DNA of 5,468 nucleotides, taken from assembly GCA_018058125.1 (NCBI GenBank), contig JAGPCH010000132.1, positions 1 to 5,468 of the forward strand, in the 5' to 3' direction. The translations under genes and the position numbers were made by a program. The DNA is from Ignavibacteria bacterium (GTDB taxonomy: Bacteria > Bacteroidota > Ignavibacteria > Tepidaquicellales > Tepidaquicellaceae). Every line of letters starts with the position of its first letter. Positions within the stretch are counted from its first letter, which is position 1. Shown one piece after another: positions 128-5,468 of this stretch. A model generated the notes under the pieces. It worked only from the letters and a program-made list of their open reading frames with translations. It did not search any database and was not told the DNA's origin.

Positions 128-736
128 TCAATAATCTCTGGGATCCACTACCAGGAGCAGTGTGCATCCGTTCTTCGTTCGTAAAGGTTCATGGTCACTT
201 TCTCCTTCTGCATGATGAAAATCACCGGGTCCGAGATGTTTTCCTTCAACAAAAAGATCTCCTTCCAATACATAACACTCTTCAGCGCCGCTATGATGAT
301 GGGACGGATAAACACAACCCGCGGCTGCTTTCAGAAGGATCACCAGATATCCTTTTTCTTTATTTAATGAAAGCGGTTTGATAGATAATCCTTTAATTTC
401 AGGATGAGGCATCCATTCTGTAGAATCCGAAAAAATAAATTCAAAACTTTCCCGCTTTTCTGAAGGCTCAGATATTGAATCCGACTTGATTTTTAGATTC
501 AATTTTTCAAATAATTTTTCTTTCAGTTCGGGTCCGGGTGTCATTAATTTATCGGAAAATACAGCCAGAGACATAAGATAGGAAAGATTATTATATTCTT
601 TGAAAAGATTCCTTACACTGTCGCTTTCAGTTTTATCCGGAGAGTTATTCAATTCCTCATCTAATGAATTAGTCAATCCCAGAGAATTCAGGATTGCACT
701 ATCTTCAGATATATTTATTTTATTTTTATTGGTCAA
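128..736 (-). CDS. ChrR-like cupin-domain anti-sigma factor
   Basis: A 202-residue soluble protein, probably the cytoplasmic partner that holds the adjacent ECF sigma factor inactive until a signal is sensed. Residues ~40-80 look like the helical anti-sigma part, including the PGPELKEKLFEKL stretch typical of such domains. Residues ~98-200 form a cupin barrel: motif 1 has H146-H147-H148, E152 and G159, and motif 2 is PGDFHH (170-175) followed by H182. H146, H148, E152 and H182 are the probable metal ligands by analogy with ChrR. C141, C154 and C191 lie within the cupin. The N-terminus lacks the HxxxCxxC zinc motif of classical ChrR/ZAS anti-sigma factors. The start is TTG at 734-736; the next in-frame ATG (residue 55) would remove part of the anti-sigma helices. 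It lies 12 bp downstream of the sigma gene and ends 4 bp from the converging plus-strand gene. The signal (singlet oxygen, peroxide or another) cannot be read from the sequence. Confidence 0.83.
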   Translation of the reverse strand: MTNKNKINISEDSAILNSLGLTNSLDEELNNSPDKTESDSVRNLFKEYNNLSYLMSLAVFSDKLMTPGPELKEKLFEKLNLKIKSDSISEPSEKRESFEFIFSDSTEWMPHPEIKGLSIKPLSLNKEKGYLVILLKAAAGCVYPSHHHSGAEECYVLEGDLFVEGKHLGPGDFHHAEGESDHEPLRTKNGCTLLLVVDPRDY

Positions 737-748
737 TTTAAATTCTGC

Positions 749-1315
749 TTACTGTATATATTTTTTTAATTTATCACGAAGCTGCATCATAGCAGCTCTC
801 ATTCTTGTCTTTACCGTCCCAAGCGGGATCTGAAAATGTTCTGCAAGTTCCGACTGGGAATAACCTTTGAAATAAGCTAATTCTATAAGGTCTTTTTGGT
901 TTTGCTTTAAAGAATTAATTGCATTTGAAACTTCAATCTGCTCCTGCTTACTGATTATTGCTGAATCAGGATCATCATAAACCGGATCTCCCGAAAGATT
1001 AAAAAATTTTTCAATATCTGTTTCGCTTGAACGGTTCTTATAACTTTTACTTCTTATACGGTCAATGGATTTGTTTCTAGTCATACGTGTAATCCATGCA
1101 AGTGGATGTCCGAGAGTTTCATCATAAGAATCTATTTTTTCCCAGATCTGAATAAAAATCTCCTGCAACAGATCCTCAGCTTCAGCTTTGTCCCTGAGAA
1201 TGTTAAAAATAATTGTGAACAAATATCTGCAGTGAATATCATAAAATTCACTCAGAGCTGCTTCATCTTTTTTCGAAATTCTTCTTATTAATATCAGGTC
1301 GTTATTATTATCCAT
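749..1315 (-). CDS. ECF-family RNA polymerase sigma factor
   Basis: A 188-residue sigma-70 family protein with only regions 2 and 4, which directs RNA polymerase to alternative promoters. Region 2 spans ~24-90: the AEAEDLLQEIFIQIWEKI segment (44-61) is region 2.1/2.2, the core-binding part, and AWITRMTRNKSIDRIRSK (73-90) is region 2.3/2.4, which opens and reads the -10 element. An acidic linker (~91-128) leads to region 4 (~129-182), whose helix-turn-helix YSQSELAEHFQIPLGTVKTR (152-171) reads the -35 element. Length and domain order are normal for an ECF factor. The start is ATG at 1313-1315, with no Shine-Dalgarno motif in the preceding bases. The cupin anti-sigma gene follows after 12 bp in the same frame, so the two are almost certainly co-transcribed. 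ChrR-type partners are known for ECF11-like and SigK-like factors, but the subgroup cannot be fixed by eye. An autoregulatory promoter probably lies in 1316-1377. Confidence 0.93.
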   Translation of the reverse strand: MDNNNDLILIRRISKKDEAALSEFYDIHCRYLFTIIFNILRDKAEAEDLLQEIFIQIWEKIDSYDETLGHPLAWITRMTRNKSIDRIRSKSYKNRSSETDIEKFFNLSGDPVYDDPDSAIISKQEQIEVSNAINSLKQNQKDLIELAYFKGYSQSELAEHFQIPLGTVKTRMRAAMMQLRDKLKKYIQ

Positions 1316-1377: not shown

Positions 1378-2994
1378 TCAGGTTAATGTCTCATTTAATT
1401 CAAAAAGAATTTTATTCAGATCATGTCCAAACAGCTTATAAGCTTTAGCAGCGCCACCTTTATTGACAAAGGGTGGTTGATTAAAACTGGTCATGCTGAT
1501 TTCAAGAAATGTAGAATAATAATTTTTCATCATATTAAGCCAATCCAGTTCTTCTTCCGTAAATTTTTTCCCTTCTTCTTTTTGCCTCTCCAGCCATTCA
1601 TTAAATTTGATGCCAACTTTATCAAGGAATGGTTCAAGAGTATCAATCTTTCCCAGTGCAAACTGAGTTAAAGCAATTATATTCGCAGGGTTTTTCTTAT
1701 CTCCTATAGGTTTTACTTTGTCAGGGTCTATTCTCTGAAATGCATTCCAGACATCCTCTGGAGTGATCTCATAAGGAGGTTTTCTTAATTCTTTTGTAAC
1801 GCCTTTTATTTCTTCAAAATCAATATTGATATGCCCGTTTTTACTACTTGAGATTATTTCAATTAATGGAATATCATTCTTGTGGGATTCAAGAAAACTT
1901 TTAAATTTGAATATAACATCTCCGGATCTTTCTTTTGCAGCTTCCTCCAATGAATTATTATTTATAAGCTGTGTATTTTTCTTTTTAATACTAAGAATAA
2001 TGAATCTGAACTTAGGATTGTCAAAAGGCCGGCAGGCAATGCTTACAAGTTCTTCAGACGCTTGTTTTAAATCTATATCATTAGGGACATAAGACTTTTC
2101 ACCGGATCCATACAATTCCTTTGCCTTCTCCATTTGTTTATCAACTCTTGTAGTGAGAATAAGATTGTTGATAATATCTTTAAGACTTGTAGCAGGTGGA
2201 TCAAGTTCAGAACAAACTTTTTTAAGTTCAGCTTTATCCTCATCTGTTAAATTCTTTTCAATTCGTGTCAAACCCTCAATAAGAGAAATCAGCGTGTTTT
2301 CGTCTCTGAATCCGATTGCAACGGACTGTATCAATGATTCTAAGGAGAATGCTTTTATAATTTCCTGAACTGTTTCAGTAGTTACTTTAATGCTATACAT
2401 TTTGATTGCTAATTTATAACTAAGTAATGCTAAAAGTGCACCTGCAACTACATCTAAAACCGAACTCATTTTCAGAAATAAAGGTGAAAGACAGATCAGC
2501 ACACACCACGCTATGATAAGTCCTTTTTTACCGAAATTAAATTTTGAATAAGCAATTGTACAGAGAACAGCCGTAGCGGCCAGCCAGTTTGGAAATGTAT
2601 TAAACGGATCAACTGATTTATACAGACTGTTTACAGCTTCAAAGAAAAACCCTGTTTCAGTTATTACTGGTCTTATTTCATTTTGTGTCGGCATAAATCC
2701 ATGAAAGAAATTTACCAGACTCCATAATATTACCAAAGCAAATAGAAATACGGTCATATCCATGGCATCTTTCTTTCGAAGTATGGAAACATATACAAAG
2801 ATCAGAAAAACATATATTGATATATAAAATATTATAAATCCCGGTATCAGTTTAAGACCTTTTTCAAAGGCTAAAAAAATTGGTGTATAACTTTCCGCCG
2901 GATGGTTTAGGGGTGTAAGGAGATAATATTGTATTAGCGCTATAAGCAGTAATACAATATTGAAAATATTCATTACTCTAAATCTTGCTGTCAT
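1378..2994 (-). CDS. Fusion protein: degenerate PAP2/AUR1-like membrane domain joined to an HsdR (type I restriction R subunit) C-terminal domain
   Basis: A 538-residue protein in two unrelated halves. Residues ~8-198 carry about six membrane segments (8-30, 48-72, 78-100, 133-151, 157-174, 177-198). RP (108-109), VDPFNTFPNWLA (128-139) and LDVVAG (180-185) match the frame of AUR1-like PAP2 proteins (RP...DPxNxFPSLH...HxxxDVxAG). However, the motif-2 histidine is L138 and the motif-3 histidine is S177, so phosphatase or transferase activity is unlikely. Residues ~216-535 resemble the region after the helicase in type I restriction R subunits: VAIGFRDENTLISLIEGL (226-243), CRPFDNPKFR (321-330), FKSFLESHKNDIP (364-376), PEDVWNAF (412-419), FALGKIDTLEPF (445-456) and a tail with KGGAAKAYKLFGHDL (512-526). 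This is the EcoEI_R_C type that docks on HsdM. The PD-(D/E)XK nuclease, Walker motifs and helicase motifs are absent. The start is ATG at 2992-2994 without a Shine-Dalgarno sequence. The function of the fusion is unknown. Confidence 0.82.
   Translation of the reverse strand: MTARFRVMNIFNIVLLLIALIQYYLLTPLNHPAESYTPIFLAFEKGLKLIPGFIIFYISIYVFLIFVYVSILRKKDAMDMTVFLFALVILWSLVNFFHGFMPTQNEIRPVITETGFFFEAVNSLYKSVDPFNTFPNWLAATAVLCTIAYSKFNFGKKGLIIAWCVLICLSPLFLKMSSVLDVVAGALLALLSYKLAIKMYSIKVTTETVQEIIKAFSLESLIQSVAIGFRDENTLISLIEGLTRIEKNLTDEDKAELKKVCSELDPPATSLKDIINNLILTTRVDKQMEKAKELYGSGEKSYVPNDIDLKQASEELVSIACRPFDNPKFRFIILSIKKKNTQLINNNSLEEAAKERSGDVIFKFKSFLESHKNDIPLIEIISSSKNGHINIDFEEIKGVTKELRKPPYEITPEDVWNAFQRIDPDKVKPIGDKKNPANIIALTQFALGKIDTLEPFLDKVGIKFNEWLERQKEEGKKFTEEELDWLNMMKNYYSTFLEISMTSFNQPPFVNKGGAAKAYKLFGHDLNKILFELNETLT
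1390..2349 (-). other. HsdR-derived segment of the fusion gene (post-helicase region plus EcoEI_R_C domain)
   Basis: This marks the part of the fusion gene (residues ~216-535) that resembles type I restriction R subunits. In whole HsdR proteins of ~750-1000 residues it is the last ~300 residues, helical, and it holds the motor-nuclease subunit on the methyltransferase core. The similarity appears to run from the VAxGxRDExTLxSL helix to the LNETL tail without a gap large enough to notice by eye, and no stop or frameshift interrupts it. The boundary with the membrane part is approximate and probably lies at residues 198-220 (nt 2335-2403). M199 (codon 2398-2400) could in principle start a separate soluble version. 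Confidence 0.78.
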
Positions 2995-3117: not shown

Positions 3118-4791
3118 CTAAAAACTCACGGATTTATCGACAGTTTTACGTGATAAATAGACTACTATCATTACCATTGCAAAAAGAACTATGCCGTATG
3201 CTGCAGCAGCTCCGGTATTGTATAATCTTAACTGAGAATAGATCTCGACTGAAATGGTTTTTGTAGAGTATGTGTACAATAAAATTGTAGATACAAATTC
3301 ACCCACCGAATTGATAAAAACAAGCATTGCTCCTGCAAGCACAGAAGGTAAAATAAACGGAAGTATGATCTTCCTGAATGTTCTGAATCCGGACGCCCCT
3401 AGCGAAGAAGATGCCTCCTCAAGTGTCGGATCAAATGCATTAAAACCGGCTAATGAGGACTGGGTCATGACTGGCAGATTTCTTACCGCATAAGCAAGCG
3501 GAAGAATAATGAATGTCCCTGTAAGAGGAACAAATCCTGAAAACAAATTAGGTGTATTAAAACTTATGATAAAACTAAGAGCGATGACGGTTCCGGGAAT
3601 TCCATATGGAAGAGAAAGAAGGCTTTCAATTAATTTACTGCCTTTGATCTTTTTACGGGAAATAAGATAAGTCGCGCTTACACCAATTATAATTGTCATA
3701 ACTACAGCAACCATTGCCATTTTTATGCTGTTGAAAAACGGTTCGAAAAATTTCGGATCATTGAATACTTTAATGTAATTCTCAATAGTTAACGGTTCTG
3801 TGAAATAATTTCTCATCAGCGAACCTTCAGGTATCAATGAAAGAAATGCAAGTGCAAGTATCGGAAGAAGGATGATGGAAACAAAAGAAAACACCGCTAA
3901 ATTTATCGGTAATCCTGATTTATTATTTATGCCGGAAGTGAAAGATCTAACAGTTCCTTTGGTACGTGTTTCAAATGAATTTTTATTTCTGTAATATCTG
4001 AGTAACAAAAAGAATAAAAGAGAGATCAGCGTAAGTATTACAGATAGCATTGAAGCTACAGAACTGTCACCATTGATCTTGGAAGAATAAATTTCTGTCG
4101 TTAAAAACCTTATCGAACCGCCGAATATCAATGGTGCAGTAAAAGACGCCATGCTCGCCATAAAAACAATTAATGAAGCTCCTGTCACAGACGGTATCAG
4201 TTGCGGAAAAATTATCTTCAAAAAAGTCCTGATCTTCGATGCACCGAGAGTATAGGAGGCTTCAATTATACTAAAGTCAATTTTCTTCAGGGCTGAGTAA
4301 ATAAACAAAAGAAAAAAAGGATAGAAGGAATAAATATGAATAATAATAATCGCTGTCCAGCCTTCAAATTTAAATGGTATGCTCTCTATTCCTGTTAGCA
4401 TTGCGATAACTTTTATCAGCAACCCGTTTTCATTCAGCAAAAATAAAAATGCAACTGTGCTGACAAGAGGAGGCGCAGCTATTGGTATGAGTAAAACCGA
4501 ATACAGAAAATTTCCAAAAGGCAATTTTTTAAAATGAAAAATATAAGCTAAGTACAACCCGATTATGAAACTGCCAGCTGCAGTGACGAGAGACAATAAT
4601 ACAGAATTCCAAACTGAGCTGCCTGCAATATTATAAAATGAATCTGACTGACTATCAGGTGCAAACACAGCAAGACTGTCTTTGACAAGCGAGAATAGCG
4701 GGAACAGAATATACCCTGCGATAAAGAAGATTATTAATACAAGTAAAAAAATGTTAGTCTTTGACAGCTTTAACAAGCTATTCTTTTTCAT
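3118..4791 (-). CDS. Two-domain ABC transporter permease, FbpB/ThiP-like (iron(III)/phosphonate/thiamine-type importer)
   Basis: A 557-residue inner-membrane protein, an internal duplication of two binding-protein-dependent permease domains with about six helices each (roughly 13-265 and 298-547). Each half has the cytoplasmic EAA loop that contacts the ATPase: IIEASYTLGASKIRTFLKII (175-194) and LEEASSSLGASGFRTFRKII (457-476), with glycines G183 and G465 in place. The fused pair in one chain of ~500-570 residues is the architecture of FbpB, ThiP, AfuB and PhnV-like permeases, which form a channel for ferric iron, thiamine or aminophosphonates. Substrate specificity cannot be read from the permease. 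The ATG at 4789-4791 is chosen over an upstream TTG at 4819-4821, since it gives a normal MKKN leader and a 14-bp overlap with the ATPase gene, typical of coupled translation. No periplasmic binding-protein gene is in the window; it may lie beyond the right edge or elsewhere. Confidence 0.92.
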   Translation of the reverse strand: MKKNSLLKLSKTNIFLLVLIIFFIAGYILFPLFSLVKDSLAVFAPDSQSDSFYNIAGSSVWNSVLLSLVTAAGSFIIGLYLAYIFHFKKLPFGNFLYSVLLIPIAAPPLVSTVAFLFLLNENGLLIKVIAMLTGIESIPFKFEGWTAIIIIHIYSFYPFFLLFIYSALKKIDFSIIEASYTLGASKIRTFLKIIFPQLIPSVTGASLIVFMASMASFTAPLIFGGSIRFLTTEIYSSKINGDSSVASMLSVILTLISLLFFLLLRYYRNKNSFETRTKGTVRSFTSGINNKSGLPINLAVFSFVSIILLPILALAFLSLIPEGSLMRNYFTEPLTIENYIKVFNDPKFFEPFFNSIKMAMVAVVMTIIIGVSATYLISRKKIKGSKLIESLLSLPYGIPGTVIALSFIISFNTPNLFSGFVPLTGTFIILPLAYAVRNLPVMTQSSLAGFNAFDPTLEEASSSLGASGFRTFRKIILPFILPSVLAGAMLVFINSVGEFVSTILLYTYSTKTISVEIYSQLRLYNTGAAAAYGIVLFAMVMIVVYLSRKTVDKSVSF

Positions 4792-5468
4792 CTTTAAGAA
4801 TTCTAAGTTTACTGTGATCAATAGTAAAGGAAATATTGTCTCCCGGTCTCAAAGTATTTTCTGTGTAACTTGCCGGGCGGCGTGAGTTAATGATCCTATC
4901 TCCGAAAGTGATCAGATACTCCATACTGAAACCTGTAAACTGAATATCAATTAATTTCAAATCGCTTTCGGTAATTGAAAGTTTTGGGATCAGTTCTTCG
5001 GGAAACAATGAAAGCACACTGTCTTTCTCAATATCAATATTGAAAATTTTCTTTGCTTCGGCTTTATCAAAAAAGTTTGAATGTCCGATAAAATCCGCCA
5101 CAAAAATATTCTGAGGTTCAAAATATATTTCCCGGGGCGTACCGATTTGCATGATTTTGCCTTTATTCATGACAGCAATCCTGTCAGACATTGCAAGCGC
5201 TTCGGACTGGTCATGCGTGACATATACAGAAGTTATTCCAATGTCTTTCTGAAGTCTTTTAATTTCATTACGCGCTTCTAAGCGGAGAGAATAATCAAGA
5301 TTTGATAAGGGTTCATCAAAGAGCAGCAAAGCCGGTTCGGTAACCAGTACTCTCGCAAGAGAAACCCTCTGCTGCTGACCGCCGCTAAGTAATGTAACGC
5401 TTTTCCGGGCATGACTGGTGAGTTTTACTTTTTCAAGCGCAAGATTAACTTTTTCCCTGATCTCTTCT
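4778..5468 (-). CDS. ABC transporter ATP-binding protein, FbpC/PotA-like with TOBE domain (N-terminus beyond the window)
   Basis: An open frame enters from the right edge and gives 229 visible residues. Reading from the edge, it has the ABC signature LSGGQQQRVSLAR (5351-5389), Walker B LLLFDEP with catalytic Glu at 5312-5314, the D-loop SNLD (5294-5305) and the H-loop VTHDQSEA with the switch histidine at 5213-5215. The stretch AVMNKGKIMQIGTPREIYFEP and then VADFIGHSNFF is the usual end of the nucleotide-binding domain. The last ~75 residues are a TOBE-type beta domain with ITFGDRIINSRRP and LRPGDNISFTI. Walker A and the Q-loop lie outside the window. It would hydrolyse ATP at the inner membrane to drive the adjacent permease. 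The signature and TOBE place it in the iron/polyamine/phosphonate/maltose importer group; its pairing with a fused FbpB-type permease favours the iron/phosphonate/thiamine branch. It ends in TAG inside the start of the permease gene. Confidence 0.93.
   Translation of the reverse strand, partial: EEIREKVNLALEKVKLTSHARKSVTLLSGGQQQRVSLARVLVTEPALLLFDEPLSNLDYSLRLEARNEIKRLQKDIGITSVYVTHDQSEALAMSDRIAVMNKGKIMQIGTPREIYFEPQNIFVADFIGHSNFFDKAEAKKIFNIDIEKDSVLSLFPEELIPKLSITESDLKLIDIQFTGFSMEYLITFGDRIINSRRPASYTENTLRPGDNISFTIDHSKLRILKDEKE

Follow-up and report, generated by a model that had tools for sequence, protein, structure and literature searches.

We identified a bacterial gene in which a membrane domain of the PAP2/AUR1 type, probably without catalytic activity, is joined in one frame to the C-terminal region of an EcoEI-type HsdR, the R subunit of type I restriction enzymes. 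The gene lies in the window, the whole stretch of 5,468 nucleotides analyzed here (Table 1). The explanation that accounts best for its features, to which we give about an even chance, is that the PAP2/AUR1-like pseudoenzyme and the HsdR region together form a membrane-anchored docking platform that operates outside restriction. A sequence-only reading of the window had described a fusion of these two parts, ascribed to selection or a very recent event, and had suggested that it may serve in type I restriction or in defense. The fusion proves genuine and under selection, whereas the tie to type I restriction or defense is not supported.

TABLE 1. Location of the fusion gene, its domains and motif positions, its neighbors in the window, and a stand-alone relative of its membrane half in another genome.
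Feature	Protein residues	Position	Strand	Remarks
Fusion gene	1-538	1378-2994	minus	538 aa plus stop, ATG start
PAP2/AUR1-fold domain	1-202	2389..2994	minus	six long predicted helices
PAP2 motif 2 (PSxH) place	135-138 (PNWL)	2581..2592	minus	His in 51/61 members, Leu in window
PAP2 motif 3 place	170-181	2452..2487	minus	from alignments with LpxE (weak) and four intact PAP2 proteins
Low-confidence linker	203-215	2350..2388	minus	HsdR part begins around here
All-helical post-motor C-terminal region of HsdR	216-538	1381..2349	minus	without nuclease and RecA-like motor domains
PF08463 EcoEI_R_C	361-537	1384..1914	minus	Pfam E = 3.8e-24, above cut-off
ECF sigma factor		749..1315	minus	62 nt downstream of fusion; order kept in 4/9 loci
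ChrR-type cupin protein, likely anti-sigma		128..736	minus	behind sigma gene; same 4/9 loci
ABC transporter permease		3118..4821	minus	upstream; in three loci of the window's genus
Stand-alone degenerate PAP2 (P0067-P0069, 205-208 aa)		L020 1468-2094	minus	genome G020

The reading frame is uninterrupted over 538 codons, as had been claimed, and its translation carries all five HsdR C-terminal landmarks named earlier (PFDNPKFR, FLESHKNDIP, EDVWNAF, and GGAAKAYKLFG among them). The assignment of this half to HsdR was confirmed, and the likeness exceeds the Pfam domain: residues 205-538 can be aligned over 96-98% with HsdR proteins 915-921 aa long (27-41% identity). The matching HsdR region is the part that follows the second RecA-like domain. 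Unlike EcoEI-type HsdR, the fusion has a PAP2-like domain in place of the nuclease and ATPase motor, and a Pfam search of the whole protein found neither HSDR_N nuclease nor RecA-like motor domains. The single NCBIfam match is an HsdR model (residues 336-537), whose E-value of 3.8e-6 falls far short of the model's cut-off. For the first 200 or so residues, the six predicted helices agree with the PAP2/AUR1-like membrane domain seen earlier, and PAP2_3 (PF14378) matches residues 55-194 at E = 2.4e-4, below the Pfam cut-off. Across the 61-row fusion family, Pfam at E ≤ 1e-3 recovers PF08463 in every row, PAP2_3 in 37, and PAP2 in 25. Database names for the family seem to have been assigned automatically (“type I restriction-modification enzyme R subunit C-terminal domain-containing protein,” “membrane-associated phospholipid phosphatase”), and no description of a PAP2-HsdR fusion appears among the titles and abstract starts of the literature matches listed.

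An AlphaFold2 model of the protein has two confident domains (mean pLDDT 87) and is weak at residues 203-215. The six-helix PAP2 fold is present in the model, which suggests an AUR1/IPC-synthase fold. Based on the K/R-rich N-terminus and the loops at 72-79 and 150-157, both ends are predicted to be cytoplasmic, and the fusion is predicted to be an inner-membrane protein with its HsdR-derived domain in the cytoplasm. A short loop at 174-178 that is predicted to lie outside carries a conserved Lys, which counts against the docking-platform explanation. No solved structure related to the HsdR-derived domain was found by sequence.

The same architecture recurs well beyond the window. Searching 5.8 billion proteins, with scoring of the 8000 candidates that had most words in common, returned 66 matches: 61 that have the complete architecture (the query among them), two partial (P0062 and P0063), and three HsdR proteins (P0064-P0066), the latter five omitted from the family alignment (A1). 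The 61 clusters share the architecture across 97-100% of the query, and the other members are 46-82% identical to it, so the fusion is not confined to a single assembly, the outcome that the sequence-only reading had held would count against it. Both halves have low dN/dS values. For L002 and L003, the least diverged of the eight pairs computed (dS about 0.5), dN/dS (NG86) is 0.094 in the membrane half and 0.061 in the C-terminal half; between the window and L002 the Nei-Gojobori values are 0.144 and 0.058, which are rough since dS exceeds 1. Defined values range from 0.05 to 0.26, the highest coming from the membrane half of the L006-L009 pair, and several saturated pairs gave no value. At the amino-acid level, the C-terminal half is better conserved than the membrane half in most of 28 pairs. 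Given the 61 clusters and the low dN/dS in both halves, the view that the intact frame reflects a selected fusion stands.

Within the window's family, we found the full-length fusion in nine of 29 genomes, which are every sampled member of five genera (g1, g7, g8, g9, and g14); it is absent from the remaining 20. Matches at E ≤ 1e-20 occur in 44 of 391 genomes sampled from the class, nine of them full length, one (G020) through a stand-alone PAP2 protein, and 34 through the HsdR part alone. The HsdR-part-only matches are mostly frames near 920 aa, and one shorter frame that we examined (L038) runs past the end of its extracted stretch. No full-length fusion beyond the nine carriers was found in this class sample, and 395 genomes sampled from the phylum yielded no new carrier: of the three genomes that match at E ≤ 1e-60, one is the window's own and the other two match through the HsdR part. 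The class and the phylum are each larger than the set sampled. In an rpoB phylogeny of 28 genomes, from which G000 is absent for want of an rpoB gene, the eight carriers with rpoB form one clade (support 100/99) in which no member is without the fusion gene. The main groups of the fusion tree are compatible with the rpoB tree, and its deep forks are weak. A single origin followed by vertical descent is likely. As a rule, type I restriction genes belong to the accessory, fast-moving part of a genome; the fusion differs from such mobile genes, vertical descent from one origin being the simplest reading. Mobile or viral carriage was considered and rejected: none of 16 pattern matches in viral contigs is related to the fusion, and seven plasmid records match the HsdR part only, none of them the whole fusion.

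The HsdR-derived half offers clues to a possible partner. We aligned 26 of the 61 fusions with 15 of 27 further matches (P0070-P0096; HsdR or HsdR fragments; alignment A2) and identified 31 columns that reach at least 90% conservation in each group, 26 HsdR-conserved columns lost in the fusions (HsdR residue in <30%), and 21 fusion-specific columns. This pattern fits a retained fold with altered surfaces that would go with a changed partner, and the 31 common columns may represent an old binding face that was kept. Such a face is central to the main rival of a docking platform outside restriction, namely a membrane-tethered type I adaptor or decoy. In that case the C-terminal domain would dock HsdM and either hold the methyltransferase at the membrane or compete with HsdR, so that restriction is localized or damped. 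In its favor, besides the 31 columns, the helical domain at the C-terminus of HsdR in EcoR124I is believed to assemble with HsdM (PMC5248579). Several genomic observations count against it, and we regard the adaptor or decoy as rather unlikely, if the strongest of the alternatives.

PF02384 (E ≤ 1e-20) and PF01420 each occur in seven of the nine carriers and HSDR_N in eight, so HsdM could still be the partner, a point that counts against a reading outside restriction. However, each of these three is also found in 15 of the 20 non-carriers, and a second PF08463 (EcoEI_R_C) protein occurs in three of nine carriers versus eight of 20 non-carriers; there is no clear excess of type I genes in carriers. 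The search for host hsdM, hsdS, and hsdR that the sequence-only reading proposed was thus positive for most carriers of the family and negative for HsdM and HsdS (including PF01420) in the window's own genome, which is only 67% complete. The contigs that carry the fusion (5.5-162 kb) have no PF02384 or PF01420 match in any of the nine genomes, another difference from EcoEI-type HsdR. Carrier G017 (97% complete) has no PF01420 match, and its sole PF02384 match is PrmC-like by sequence reading, yet its fusion copy is still constrained. The G017 branch has 17 nonsynonymous and 37 synonymous changes compared with 18 and 50 on the sister branch (46 sites ambiguous), counts that suggest no clear relaxation relative to the sister copy. 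The weight of this case is reduced because the absence of HsdM and HsdS rests on a metagenome-assembled genome of about 430 contigs, and because G017 does encode an HsdR-like ORF. Overall, none of the nine carrier contigs has an hsdM/hsdS-type match, type I genes do not clearly co-occur with the fusion in excess, and the earlier proposal of an adaptor, decoy, or regulator of a type I complex is not supported, although the protein may act as an HsdM decoy or adaptor in some genomes.

Other HsdR-like genes were encountered in these genomes. G017 encodes one HsdR-like helicase-nuclease ORF of 1026 aa, whose 3.9-kb contig has no hsdM/hsdS, and by eye a look-alike exists in G014 (L050, L051), with no PF02384 match on the contig of the latter. 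In carrier G018, two contig-edge frames of 432 aa (L052 2707-4005 and L053 3-1301) match PF08463 and are probably cut HsdR ends; the L052 frame adjoins an ORF that reads as SIR2-like. EcoKI subunits are reportedly membrane-associated.

In PAP2 enzymes, motif 3 has the form SR-x5-H-x3-D. The Arg is absent from all 61 fusions, 59 of which have Pro instead, and the nucleophile His is never found at its aligned place (position 177), which was set by a weak alignment with LpxE (12.7 bits) and by four intact PAP2 proteins; the Asp is retained in 57 of 61. With this His missing throughout, the PAP2 half of the fusion is probably a pseudoenzyme. The fusion differs from AUR1/IPC synthase and LpxE in the absence of both motif-3 residues and in being joined to a predicted cytoplasmic domain. 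We considered column 178 (Tyr in 43 and His in 10 of 61) as an alternative catalytic His and rejected it, since the aligned place is 177. Motif-1 Arg-Pro is retained in 60 of 61 fusions and the motif-2 His in most, which is more than a pure anchor would need and counts against the docking-platform explanation. These retained residues, the modeled AUR1/IPC-synthase fold, and the ten members with His at 178, beside the usual place, would suit an active PAP2-superfamily lipid enzyme in which the HsdR-derived C-terminal domain is regulatory. The loss of the motif-3 Arg and His in every member argues against this, as does the missing motif-2 His in the window and its four nearest tree relatives, and we consider an active enzyme improbable.

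Each of the three carriers that were checked also encodes a distinct PAP2 protein in which the PSGH and HYxxD motifs are intact. The family genomes also contain 12 weaker PAP2-like matches (about residues 131-228), four of which were examined. Of the relatives found for just the N-terminal half, the closest is the stand-alone PAP2 of G020 (E = 6e-37, profile positions 3-199). It is without the same histidines as the fusion and, unlike the fusion, has no HsdR part; only three clusters of it were found, its own included.

The scanned gene neighbors (Pfam, 10 proteins from relatives' loci and four from the window) are ordinary and include urocanase, an ECF sigma factor with a ChrR-type cupin, TonB receptors, and an ABC transporter. 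The sigma and cupin genes are directly 3′ of the fusion in the window, L002, L003, and L009 (gaps of 22-69 nt), and these loci belong to two genera that the rpoB tree does not place as sisters. The pair may be co-transcribed with the fusion, which would be a hint of a link to the envelope or to oxidative stress. Urocanase (hutU) is directly upstream of the fusion in four of the nine loci and third upstream in L008 (L004-L008; one member scanned). Promoter-like sites were no more numerous than in shuffles, and five terminator-like sites were observed versus 1.3 expected.

Membrane-acting effectors are common in defense, and one domain of the fusion is of HsdR origin; the protein could thus be imagined as a membrane-acting defense effector with the HsdR domain as its phage sensor. 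This sits poorly with a clade-wide gene that appears to be vertically inherited and shows no loss in any sampled member of the five carrier genera, with the kinds of neighbors described above, and with the absence of relatives in viral contigs and of plasmid matches outside the HsdR part. No PADLOC family matches the fusion at E ≤ 1. A role as a new defense component, as suggested earlier, therefore seems to us a poor prospect. The plain alternative, that a recent chance deletion or an assembly artefact fused a PAP2 gene to an hsdR remnant, is refuted by the 61 clusters, the nine-genome clade distribution, and dN/dS far below 1, and is almost certainly wrong even though the parts do occur separately (G020 has a stand-alone relative of the N-terminal half, and G010 and G028 have full HsdR).

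For the docking-platform explanation, we envisage that an ancestor of the clade acquired its fusion when a PAP2-like membrane gene captured, at its 3′ end, the docking/control domain of an hsdR, and that the fusion would then have been inherited vertically. The membrane half likely binds a lipid or headgroup without hydrolysis, or only anchors the protein; the helical half likely brings a partner from the cytoplasm to the membrane. A bolder version, which we put forward only tentatively and think doubtful, is that an HsdR docking domain became, through a single domestication, a permanent component of the cell envelope. Throughout a whole bacterial lineage, the fusion would then sense lipids as a pseudo-phosphatase and hold a DNA-associated partner, either a methyltransferase or the nucleoid, at the inner membrane. 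A restriction domain is now part of a clade-wide gene, carried on a likely membrane pseudoenzyme. If the docking-platform explanation is true, restriction machinery has been converted into cell-envelope machinery, and the fusion would provide a natural, motor-free HsdR docking domain with which to ask what this domain binds.
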